NCBI GenBank assembly: GCA_025716855.1 | Contig: JAIXMQ010000070.1 | Coordinates: 62,001 to 126,000, forward strand | Length of the DNA stretch: 64,000 nucleotides | From: Pilaira anomala | Lineage: Eukaryota; Mucoromycota; Mucoromycetes; Mucorales; Mucoraceae | Direction: 5' to 3' | Shown: positions 22,328-47,495 of the stretch, one piece after another | How the letters are laid out: each line of letters opens with the position of its first letter | Numbering within the stretch: position 1 is the first letter of the stretch | Notes under the pieces: model-generated | What the model saw: the letters and a program-made list of their open reading frames with translations, nothing else | Told to the model about the DNA's origin: nothing | Databases searched by the model: none | Made by a program: the position numbers and the translations under genes

Positions 22328-22633
22328 ATTAATGCAACCTTTTTTTTTTTTAAAAAAAAAAGAGAAATACACGTTAACAATCAAATTGAATAAAGTTTAA
22401 TTTTTTTTTTTTCGACATTTTGAAAAATATATTACTTGTTTATTTGAATAAGAAAAGGAACAATGTGTCCATATCCGGGGTTTCTACCAGCTTAAAACAA
22501 TCAAAGGTAGACCAGATAAGCGTGACGCAACCGTTTATATTTCATTTGATTGGCTTGATGAAAAATAAAATGTACGCGCCCTTTTTTTCTTTTTTTTTTT
22601 ATTTCTTATTTTTTTTTTTACTACGGATTCAAT
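22328..22633. promoter_or_regulatory. Divergent promoter region
   Basis: The 306 bp separating two divergent start codons. It contains an ATTGG (CCAAT on the other strand) near 22548 and poly(T) runs directly before both ATGs. No known TATA arrangement could be assigned with confidence. Confidence 0.4.
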
Positions 22634-24190
22634 ATGCCACCACGAGCAAAAAGAAAGACAAATGTTGATACACACAGCCAGAAGATTGATAGTTACTTTA
22701 AGCCATTGCCAAAGGTAAAAAGAAAAGTTGAAAACGATGAAAACAGTCAAGAAGCTGGACGACCGTCTCCATCGCCACCTAGTTCTCAGTCAAAACCACT
22801 CAAAAGCTTTGGTGAGAATAGAACAGGAACAACAACCACAACAACAACACCATTTGGATTAAAGTCAGAAAATGAAAACATTGGAACCAAATCGTTTGGA
22901 CTTCAAGGAAATAAAGATGACTGTAAAACATTTGGTACGACCAATGCGTTAAAATGGCATCAACAATTTGATAGACAGCCACTAAGGGAGATATCAGTTG
23001 CACCTGTCAGTATAAAAATGTCTTCCATTTGCCGACCTGTGCAACACACATTCCAAGTACTATCTGATCAAGAAATTGAAAGAGGTATTGAGCAATCGAC
23101 TAGTAGTAGATCAAGATATGATGACAATTCACGACCTACTGAAGTAAATAGTAGCTTGGACAGTAATTATTCAAATGTAAAATCACCTATTCTTTCTTAT
23201 CCTGGTCAAAGCGATACACAAGATTCTTTTGAAGTCTATGCAGATGAAGCTCAAATATCAGATACCGTTCGCGGCGGGATTATTCATAGTGTTACAAATT
23301 CAGACGATGAATCCAGCCCCGAAGATAAATTTGAAGTCTATGTAGACAATCAGGAAGAAGACAAATTTGAAGTATATGTTGATAATCAGGCGGAGCAGGA
23401 GGAAGGGTTTGAAGTCTATGCAGATAAAGATAATGCATACACCGATAAATTTGAAGTCTATTTAGATAATAGTAGTGAAGACGGCAATAAATTTGAAGTG
23501 TATGAAGATCAAGATAATGAAAGCGACCAAGACAGTAAATTCGAAGTTTATGTAGATAAAGGTAATGAAAGCGACCAAGACAGTAAATTCGAAGTGTATG
23601 AGGATCAAGATAATGAAAGCGACCAAGACAGTAAATTCGAAGTTTATGTAGATAAAGGTAATGAAAGCGACCAAGACAATAAATTCGAAGTCTCTGCAGA
23701 TAAAGATAATGGAAGCGACAAAGACAGTAAATTCAAAGTTTATGTAGATGAGAATGACACGCAATCTAACAACAGCACCACCACTACTTGTACTATAAAG
23801 GATGATTCTGAATTACGGATAAAGAGCTCTAGTACAATCACTCAACATCAATTAAAGGAGGATAGACGAAATAAAGAAAATGAACCGGTGTCTGATAGCG
23901 AAGAAAAGTCATCAACTATTGTAAATAGCCCTATTGTTAAAAAGAGCTCGTCTACGTTACCAGACTTCTTTAAACGAGGTACCAGTTCACGTTCAACATA
24001 TGGCTCATCATCAAATGGTTTTTTCGATCAATATGATGAACATGTTAAATTTGATGATTCAGAAATACCAGAAGAATTTTCAATCAATGAATTTACATCT
24101 GAATTTACACCTGAATTTAAAGAACCTTCTGTACCTCTTTTCAGTTCCAAACAGAAACATTTACTTCAGGAACGTAAAGAAAAAAGATAA
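22634..24190 (+). CDS. Acidic repeat protein with ABBA-like motif array, KEN box and PIP-like motifs
   Basis: Single open frame of 518 residues; I do not recognise the family. The N-terminus is basic (PPRAKRKT) and carries a PIP-box-like KIDSYFKP (residues 17-24, Ser instead of Gln at position one). Residues 114-117 read RQPL, an RxxL degron-like site. From residue 199 the motif F-[EK]-V-Y-x-D occurs with Phe at 199, 233, 245, 259, 273, 287, 303, 319, 335 and 367, and once as FEVSAD at 351. An additional weak relative is FQVLSD at 140. Spacing settles to 16 residues. A KEN box is at 414-416 and a second PIP-like site (LPDFFK) at 442-447. The motif matches the ABBA consensus for ligands of Cdc20/Cdh1. 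I infer a cell-cycle protein controlled by, or controlling, the APC/C; this is not proven. Confidence 0.8.
   Translation: MPPRAKRKTNVDTHSQKIDSYFKPLPKVKRKVENDENSQEAGRPSPSPPSSQSKPLKSFGENRTGTTTTTTTPFGLKSENENIGTKSFGLQGNKDDCKTFGTTNALKWHQQFDRQPLREISVAPVSIKMSSICRPVQHTFQVLSDQEIERGIEQSTSSRSRYDDNSRPTEVNSSLDSNYSNVKSPILSYPGQSDTQDSFEVYADEAQISDTVRGGIIHSVTNSDDESSPEDKFEVYVDNQEEDKFEVYVDNQAEQEEGFEVYADKDNAYTDKFEVYLDNSSEDGNKFEVYEDQDNESDQDSKFEVYVDKGNESDQDSKFEVYEDQDNESDQDSKFEVYVDKGNESDQDNKFEVSADKDNGSDKDSKFKVYVDENDTQSNNSTTTTCTIKDDSELRIKSSSTITQHQLKEDRRNKENEPVSDSEEKSSTIVNSPIVKKSSSTLPDFFKRGTSSRSTYGSSSNGFFDQYDEHVKFDDSEIPEEFSINEFTSEFTPEFKEPSVPLFSSKQKHLLQERKEKR
23489..23728 (+). repeat. Five tandem 48-bp coding repeats
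   Basis: Five in-frame 16-codon units start at each KFEV of the acidic protein. Units alternate between a VDKGNESDQDS and an EDQDNESDQDS tail, so a 96-bp higher-order repeat is visible and near-identical at nucleotide level. This points to recent unit duplication within the array. Confidence 0.85.
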
Positions 24191-45361: not shown

Positions 45362-47495
45362 ATGTTTAGTAAAGTACTCATATCCTCTGCCGGTAAATTA
45401 ACTGGTCAACGTACTTTTACTACTTTATCAAGAACCTTGATCGCTCGTCCTGGTAAGTTATTGTGTAATCTAATTTTATAGATCTTGCAATATATTAACT
45501 TTTTAAACAAACAAAATAGTCCGATCTCTTGTTCATACACAAGCATTGCGTCCTCGCATTCTTACCGATCTCAAGATCTCTCCTTATGCTTTCCTTCACA
45601 CTCAATCCTCAGCAACCAATTCTGTTGCTGAACTCGTCAAGGAAGAATTCAAAGAAGAGATAACCATTGAACCTATTGTTGAAAAGATGCGTTTTGATGC
45701 TATTGAAGCTATCAACCCTTTCACTCAAAAAGCCATTCGTCAAGTATTCAAGTACCAAGAAATGTCTGCAGTCCAAGAAGCCGTCCTTCAAAAATTACCT
45801 AACACTACCGATATGTTTGTCAAAGCAAAGACAGGTACCGGTAAAACCTTGGCTTTCTTGACTGCCGCTTTAGAGACAGCCACAGCCGGTCAAACACCTG
45901 CTGATTTCAGACACTTTGAAGGAACTACTATCATGGTCATCTCTCCTACTCGTGAACTCGCTAATCAAATTGCTGACGAAGCACAAAAATTAGTAAGTTA
46001 TTATCCTTTCAAGGTACATTGTATGGTCGGTGGAGATTCCAAGAGAAAGCAAATCTTCAATTTAGAACGTCGTCGTTGTGATATTGTGGTGGCTACACCG
46101 GGTCGTTTGCAAGATATGCTTTCTTCTGTACCTCGTTTCAAGAAGATGTGTGAGAACCTCAAGGTCTTGATTTTGGATGAAGCTGATCAATTATTGGATA
46201 TGGGTTTCAAGGCAGAACTTCAACGTATCTTGAACCAAATCCCTGAAAAGCGTCAAACCATGCTTTACTCCGCTACTATTTCAGCCGAAATCCGTAACAA
46301 CTTGGGTAAATTCGCTTTAAGTCCTAATTATGATTTAATCGATACTGTCGGTAAAGACGATGTCAACACCAATATCAATGTTAAACAATCCGCTATTGTT
46401 GCACCTTATAAAGATCAATTTGCTTTGATTCGTGAAACCCTTGAAACCCATCAAGCTGCTTTAAATGGTAAGGTCATTGTGTTCTTACCTACTACGAAGG
46501 CAACCATGGTCTATGCGAATGCCTTCAAGCGTTTAATGCCTGATCGTATGGTATATGAAATTCATTCCAAGAAGAACCAAGATCAACGTTCTCGTATTGC
46601 CGATAAGTTCAGAAGATCCAATGAATCCAGTATCTTATTCACATCCGATGTATCTGCTCGTGGTGTTGATTACCCTGGTGTCAAACTTGTTCTTCAAGTC
46701 GGTGTCCCCTCTACCCGTGAACAATATATCCATCGTTTAGGTCGTACCGGTCGTGCAGGTCGTGAAGGTGAAGGTATCATTGTTTTAGCTCCTTTCGAAC
46801 AAGCTTTCTTGGATAAAGAAGTCTCTGATCTTCCTATTGAGATCGCTCAAACCCCTGAACTTTCTCAAGAAATCATTACTGAAACCAACGAATCTGTTCA
46901 TAAGGCACTTACTACCATGGATGAAGATATGGTAAGAGAAGTTTATACCGCTTACTTGGGTTATTACTCTGGAAGAATGCCCATGTTGGGTTATCGTCGT
47001 AACGCTGCGATCACTGAAGCCAATAACTTTATGACTGGTATGGGTGTCACTGAACTTCCTTATTTAAGTCCTCGTTTCCTTTCTCAACTTGGTTTAGGTG
47101 GTTCAAGTGGTGGAGGTGACCGTGGAGGTCGTGGTGGATATAGCCGTGGTGGTAGTAGCTACGGTGGTGGTGGTCGTGATGGTGGATTCAACCGTGGTGG
47201 TGGAGATCGTGGTGGATTCAACCGTGGTGGTGATCGTGGTTTCAGCCGTGGTGGTGACCGTGGTGGATTCAACCGTGGTGGAGATCGTGATAGCTTCAAG
47301 AGCCGTGATGACTTTGGTAGCCGTGATAGCTTCAAGAGCCGTGATGACTTTGGTAGCCGTGATAGCTTCAAGAGTCGTGATAGCTTCAAGAGCCGTGATG
47401 ATTTCGGTGGTGGATTCAAGCGTCGTGATGACGGTGGTTTCAAGCCCCGTGTTGACTACAACCGTCGTGGTAGCTTCAAGAAGCGTGAAGACTAA
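45362..47495 (+). CDS. DEAD-box RNA helicase, mitochondrial Mss116-like
   Basis: Two exons (45362-45452, 45520-47495) sum to 2067 nt, 688 residues. Exon 1 encodes an Arg/Ser/Thr-rich presequence (MFSKVLISSAGKLTGQRTF). Helicase motifs are complete: AKTGTGKT (133-140), SPTRELA, TPGR, DEAD (250-253), SAT, SARGVDYPGV and HRLGRTGRAGR. The VDYPGV form is typical of Mss116/Cyt-19. The C-terminal about 100 residues are Arg/Gly-rich (GGDRGGFNRGG) plus repeated SFKSRDDFGSRD units, a basic tail that in this group tethers RNA. Such proteins help group I/II intron splicing and translation in mitochondria. The intron separating presequence from core is short. Confidence 0.93.

Follow-up and report, generated by a model that had tools for sequence, protein, structure and literature searches.

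KNL1 carries arrays of MELT motifs, rapidly evolving tandem short motifs which recruit the WD40 protein Bub3, and Emi1 combines a zinc-binding region with a C-terminal RL tail. Acm1, the Cdh1 pseudosubstrate inhibitor of S. cerevisiae, contains a single ABBA motif, and its elements follow the order ABBA, KEN box and D-box. As described in the cited sources, these three elements occur together in Acm1 (PMC5717348, PMC9289945) and engage Cdh1 simultaneously (PMC9289945). The single ABBA peptide of Acm1 is reported to have a very low affinity for Cdh1 (PMC8764033), and an Acm1 protein with one D-box mutated is reported to become a degradable substrate (PMC9289945). Allovalency is described for the Sic1-Cdc4 pair in the same source (PMC9289945), and ABBA motifs organized as repeat arrays are reported in the MAD (Mad3/BubR1-like) proteins of Physcomitrella patens, basidiomycetes and stramenopiles (PMC5204127).

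The current study concerns an intronless open reading frame of the mucoralean fungus Pilaira anomala, found within a window of 64,000 nucleotides (positions 62001-126000 of its contig), by which we mean the entire stretch of DNA analysed here (Table 1). The encoded protein of 518 residues contains an array of 11 motif copies, which includes nine FEVYxD copies starting at residues 199, 233, 245, 259, 273, 287, 303, 319 and 335 as well as FKVYVD at residue 367. The copies are spaced by 34, 12, 14, 14, 14, 16, 16, 16, 16 and 16 residues, and Tandem Repeats Finder (TRF) detects tandem units of 48 nt and 96 nt within the array. The repetition is not a product of chance. The ABBA consensus Fx[ILV][FHY]x[DE] is matched by 10 of the 11 copies, the exception being the tenth. 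These results bear out the first-pass annotation of this DNA, which had described ten copies of F[EK]VYxD and one FEVSAD within 175 residues (174 by our count), a spacing converging upon 16 residues (the value of each of the last five spacings), an acidic protein of 518 residues (107 D+E versus 65 K+R), and a KEN box and an RxxL site, each of which is the sole match in the protein.

Table 1. Positions within the window of the open reading frame and its motifs.
Feature	Residues	Window coordinates	Strand	Basis
ORF, 518 aa, intronless, charged, holds all motifs	1-518	22634..24190	+	ORF listing; Pfam, PDB-sequence and genome searches
PIP-like SQKIDSYF, without the canonical Q at position 1	15-22	22676..22699	+	motif scan
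D-box match RQPLREI (RxxL at 114-117)	114-120	22973..22993	+	motif scan
Degenerate upstream look-alike FQVLSD; position 4 fails the ABBA consensus	140-145	23051..23068	+	motif scan
Array of 11 motif copies (nine FEVYxD, FEVSAD, FKVYVD), 174 residues	199-372	23228..23749	+	TRF, motif scan, codon comparison
Copy 10, FEVSAD; Ser for Tyr, fails the ABBA consensus	351-356	23684..23701	+	motif scan, codon comparison
KEN box, context RNKENEP	414-416	23873..23881	+	motif scan
Second PIP-like SSTLPDFF, weak, without the canonical Gln	439-446	23948..23971	+	motif scan

The gene is single-copy, as the whole protein matches only itself within its own genome (34.25 Mb in 225 contigs) at E values up to 0.01. 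No Pfam family reaches its cut-off against the protein, no PDB sequence matches it at E values up to 10, the one NCBIfam match is not credible, and the scanned viral contigs contain no relatives. A single-sequence AlphaFold2 model, built without an alignment, has a mean pLDDT of 42.3 and a pTM of 0.34, scores too low to support a firm statement. The protein is probably disordered. Two PIP-like stretches are located one towards either end of the protein; 0.8% of shuffled sequences contain at least two matches to [ILM]xx[FY][FY], and the protein has no match to Qxx[ILM]xx[FY][FY], the canonical form of the PIP box.

When examining the specificity of the motif, we found that a strict ABBA match arises in a random 16-residue unit of the array composition with a probability of 0.0012, and a chance likeness to ABBA would therefore be conceivable among many repeat proteins. 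Thirteen other docking patterns (LIR, three SIM forms, RVxF, LxxIxE, RxL, MELT, FxxA, EF-hand, F/YxF, FG and NPxY), have no match in residues 199-382, and the only alternative pattern to match is a loose acid-then-aromatic one, with 13 matches in the array. Genome-wide, the pattern TTYRANRTNTAYNNNGAYRA, which misses the FEVSAD copy as well as two copies followed by Gln, has 29 matches, eight of them inside the array gene, while a reversed control has 32. The remaining 21 matches were considered as further ABBA-like genes and are probably due to chance; 19 lie in open frames of at most 126 residues, and the frames around the other two are 341 and 1006 residues long. The KEN box and the D-box add weak evidence by their presence, as shuffling the 344 residues outside the array 20,000 times yields a KEN in 13.0% of cases, a match to the D-box expression in 10.2% and both in 1.3%. 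In the context RNKENEP, the KEN follows an Asn and is itself followed by a Pro at the second residue, much like the context given in PMC5717348. A KEN preceded by Asp or Asn and followed by Pro within one to three residues appears in 0.26% of these shuffles, a figure to be discounted because this context was picked after the sequence had been viewed.

A key question is whether selection has acted upon the motif itself. Across the codons for F, V, Y and D in the 11 copies, a minimum of five synonymous changes and one nonsynonymous change is required, against an expected nonsynonymous share of 78% (P 0.0026 in a binomial test; P stays between 0.001 and 0.009 when the transition weight is varied from 1 to 8). 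F is encoded by both TTT and TTC, V by all four GTN codons and D by both GAT and GAC, with zero replacements at these three positions, and Y is replaced once, by TCT in FEVSAD. Position 5, which is free in ABBA motifs, takes A, V, L or E. By comparison, the other positions of the five in-phase 16-codon units exhibit one synonymous and seven nonsynonymous changes, close to the neutral expectation of 81%, although the contrast between core and remainder within these five units (3:1 versus 1:7) is not significant (Fisher P 0.067). Position 2, which the consensus leaves free, is Glu in 10 of the 11 copies and is thus fixed as strongly as Tyr. The overall pattern agrees with the ABBA positions being kept, except that Glu2 is kept as well, and this evidence is moderate because the events are few, with six core changes in total.

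The same genome encodes coactivators that may serve as partners. Among the 78 WD40 matches listed, two loci score above the CDC20-Fz WD40 family cut-off: L007 is Cdh1-like, its best PDB match being a fizzy-related protein, and L008 is Cdc20-like, Slp1 being the best match of its first exon. Among the aligned PDB chains, the entry 4BH6 contains S. cerevisiae Cdh1 with Acm1 (PMC5717348). In human Cdc20, mutants of the pocket between blades 2 and 3 (R262S, and a double mutant with I280Q) are reported to weaken the binding of ABBA peptides (PMC5179498); the second residue of this double mutant is printed there as Y179 and is taken here as 279, because the chain has Pro179 and Tyr279. In our alignment, the positions of R262 and I280 are occupied by Arg/Ile in the P. 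anomala Cdh1, Arg/Leu in its Cdc20, Arg/Val in yeast Cdh1 and Ser/Gln in human Cdh1. Yeast Cdh1 binds ABBA, and human Cdh1 is described as unable to recognise it (PMC5717348). Based upon their Arg and aliphatic pocket residues, both P. anomala coactivators are predicted to be ABBA-competent. Yeast Cdh1 Lys333, which is described as contacting position 5 of the Acm1 ABBA motif (PMC5717348), is aligned with a His in the P. anomala Cdh1, and this counts against a coactivator ligand.

The genome also encodes members of protein families in which ABBA motifs are known. The Mad3-like locus L002 matches the Mad3_BUB1_I profile; its first ORF has a KEN box (VDARKENIEPRR) and its second has both ISVYQD and FKVHVD. 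This locus has PTDSFKVHVDSKE, to be compared with TQDSFEVYADEA and FKVYVD in the array. The closeness of FKVHVD to FKVYVD places the array copies near the motif of an ABBA-using protein family. FKVHVD is the only strict ABBA match in the scanned Mad3/Bub1-like and cyclin ORFs. A relaxed pattern has 13 matches across the scanned frames of L002, L003, L004 and L048, some of which may be noncoding. The genome has four cyclin loci, and the one scanned, L048 (Cyclin_N and Cyclin_C), encodes the D-box RNALKDF and, shortly after it, the ABBA-like HTVFVDKE with His in place of Phe, in the frame L048:1123-2712. Neither ISVYQD nor HTVFVD carries much weight alone, as the relaxed pattern also matches within Mad3_BUB1_I and kinase regions. 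Between ISVYQD and FKVHVD (L002:406-1497), a FEN (SQFENRIS) takes the place in which one would look for another KEN, and it may be a degenerate KEN2. Besides L002 and L004, there are further Mad3_BUB1_I matches at L003, L005 and L006; L003 is a near-duplicate of the Mad3-like gene L002, and L005/L006 represent a more diverged copy, with stops inside one match. Mad3-like and Bub1-kinase-like loci are separate in this genome, which agrees with the published Mucorales duplication.

It is now possible to place the array protein beside the described systems. Like the MAD proteins (PMC5204127), it presents ABBA motifs in a repeat array, so such arrays are not new in kind, and the first-pass annotation was incomplete in its premise that ABBA motifs occur singly or in small numbers in the known examples. 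The MAD proteins belong to the MADBUB family, whereas the 518-residue protein has no match to Mad3_BUB1_I (PF08311) at E values up to 1, and the genome-wide search with this profile hits other loci only. Among the literature matches listed, which comprise titles and the beginnings of abstracts and leave subscription papers mostly outside their scope, no ABBA array outside MADBUB is mentioned, nor is there an Acm1-like inhibitor for Mucor-type fungi, Emi1 lying outside the search terms. An ABBA array in a protein lacking a Mad3/Bub1 domain thus looks new. The resemblance to Acm1 lies in the motifs. Their order differs, as the D-box at 114 precedes the ABBA array (199-372, with ten ABBA matches) and the KEN box at 414. 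Many weak copies of one motif facing a site on a WD40 protein are also reminiscent of Sic1-Cdc4 (PMC9289945), except that Sic1 presents phosphodegrons to SCF, whereas the array would present ABBA motifs to the APC/C and any allovalency is deduced. KNL1 similarly offers tandem short motifs to a WD40 partner, but both motif and partner differ, and the MELT pattern tried here is absent from the array. Emi1 was rejected as an identity, since the protein has no Pfam match to a zinc-binding region at E values up to 1 and ends in KEKR; securin was likewise set aside, its Pfam profile having no match at E values up to 1, although this profile may miss fungal securins.

Based upon these comparisons, it is somewhat probable that the 518-residue protein serves Cdh1 and/or Cdc20, the coactivators of the APC/C, as an allovalent and probably disordered ligand. 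The coactivator ligand proposed in the first-pass annotation is therefore retained in part, supported by the identity and constraint of the motifs, the competent coactivators and the Mad3-like motif; a MAD-type protein, as one form of the mitotic checkpoint component that it suggested, is disfavoured, given the lack of a Mad3_BUB1_I match and the separate Mad3-like and Bub1-like loci. We infer the binding, the allovalency, the outcome and the cell-cycle timing as follows. Each FEVYxD would be an ABBA motif docking singly on the WD40 propeller of the coactivator, in the groove that separates blade 2 from blade 3. As there is one ABBA pocket per propeller, ten weak and exchangeable copies would most simply act by rebinding, raising its chance through allovalency, and the very low affinity of the single Acm1 peptide (PMC8764033) suggests conditions under which additional copies would be an advantage. 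Of the remaining two degron sites, one would be filled by the sole D-box and one by the sole KEN box. This could lead to either the well-timed destruction of a tightly held substrate or, for a pseudosubstrate inhibitor, blocked access of substrates. The degradable D-box mutant of Acm1 (PMC9289945) implies that these two states lie close together. Destruction is the likelier of the two, and they jointly make up the probability given to the ligand. If real, the array would provide a natural test of allovalency, with one motif array facing one pocket and with intact copies adjoining broken ones, as well as a first lead to how this fungus restrains or is read by Cdh1 or Cdc20 outside the spindle checkpoint proteins; it would also indicate that ABBA arrays arise outside the MAD family.

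Compatible with a coactivator ligand, and a serious contender although short of an even chance, is a protein that is purely an APC/C substrate, having some other main job, perhaps PCNA- or chromatin-linked, with the motifs securing its timely destruction. Such a protein would account for one D-box beside one KEN, it would accommodate SQKIDSYF near the N terminus, and ABBA motifs are reported to act in the substrates cyclin A2 and Clb5 as well (PMC5717348). On the other hand, the cited passages mention no ABBA array in a substrate, no folded domain was recognised with Pfam or PDB sequences to indicate another job, and the PIP-like stretch is without its canonical Gln. It is rather unlikely that we are dealing instead with a stand-alone, lineage-specific allovalent inhibitor that clamps Cdh1/Cdc20 through some ten ABBA motifs, a D-box and a KEN box and fills in this fungus the role of Acm1 in yeast or Emi1 in animals, with the PIP-like box possibly tying it to replication.

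The remaining explanations dispense with the APC/C. The array could bind a different partner, whether as an acidic-aromatic array for basic proteins such as histones H2A-H2B or through the groove of some unknown protein, and its net charge of -41 over 174 residues and 13 acid-then-aromatic matches would suit this scenario. However, that pattern is loose enough to fit nearly every acidic stretch containing aromatics, and it leaves the constant Val3 and Asp6 beside a free position 5 unexplained; we regard a different partner as improbable. Equally doubtful is a young and functionally neutral tandem expansion within a disordered acidic protein, its ABBA likeness being coincidental. The 48- and 96-nt units, the single genomic copy without relatives in Pfam, NCBIfam, PDB sequences or viral contigs, the ease with which KEN and D-box each arise by chance and the non-significant test confined to in-phase units are all consistent with such an expansion, yet F, V and D change only synonymously while the rest of the unit is free to vary, and copies 1-5 retain the motif despite linkers that differ in length and sequence. 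Least probable by far is a joint fold of the repeats into a beta-solenoid-like array in place of linear motifs. The AlphaFold2 model does render 8 of the 11 copies as strands of at least three residues, with block pLDDT values of about 51-64, but the poor overall scores of this alignment-free model, uneven spacings (anywhere between 12 and 34 residues) and the highly acidic character of the region all argue against it.

Outside the coding sequence, the 306-base stretch upstream of the ATG contains one copy of ACGCG at 22574-22578, ending 56 bases 5' of the start codon. It was rejected as promoter evidence, since the window holds 33 matches and about 0.16 would be expected in the 306 bases. ACGCG is in excess across the window as a whole (33 versus 20.4 expected), with none of 100 shuffles reaching 33. 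Elsewhere in the window, TRF reports overlapping tandem repeats at 47167-47456; their units measure between 12 and 54 nt, and several are rich in GGTGG.
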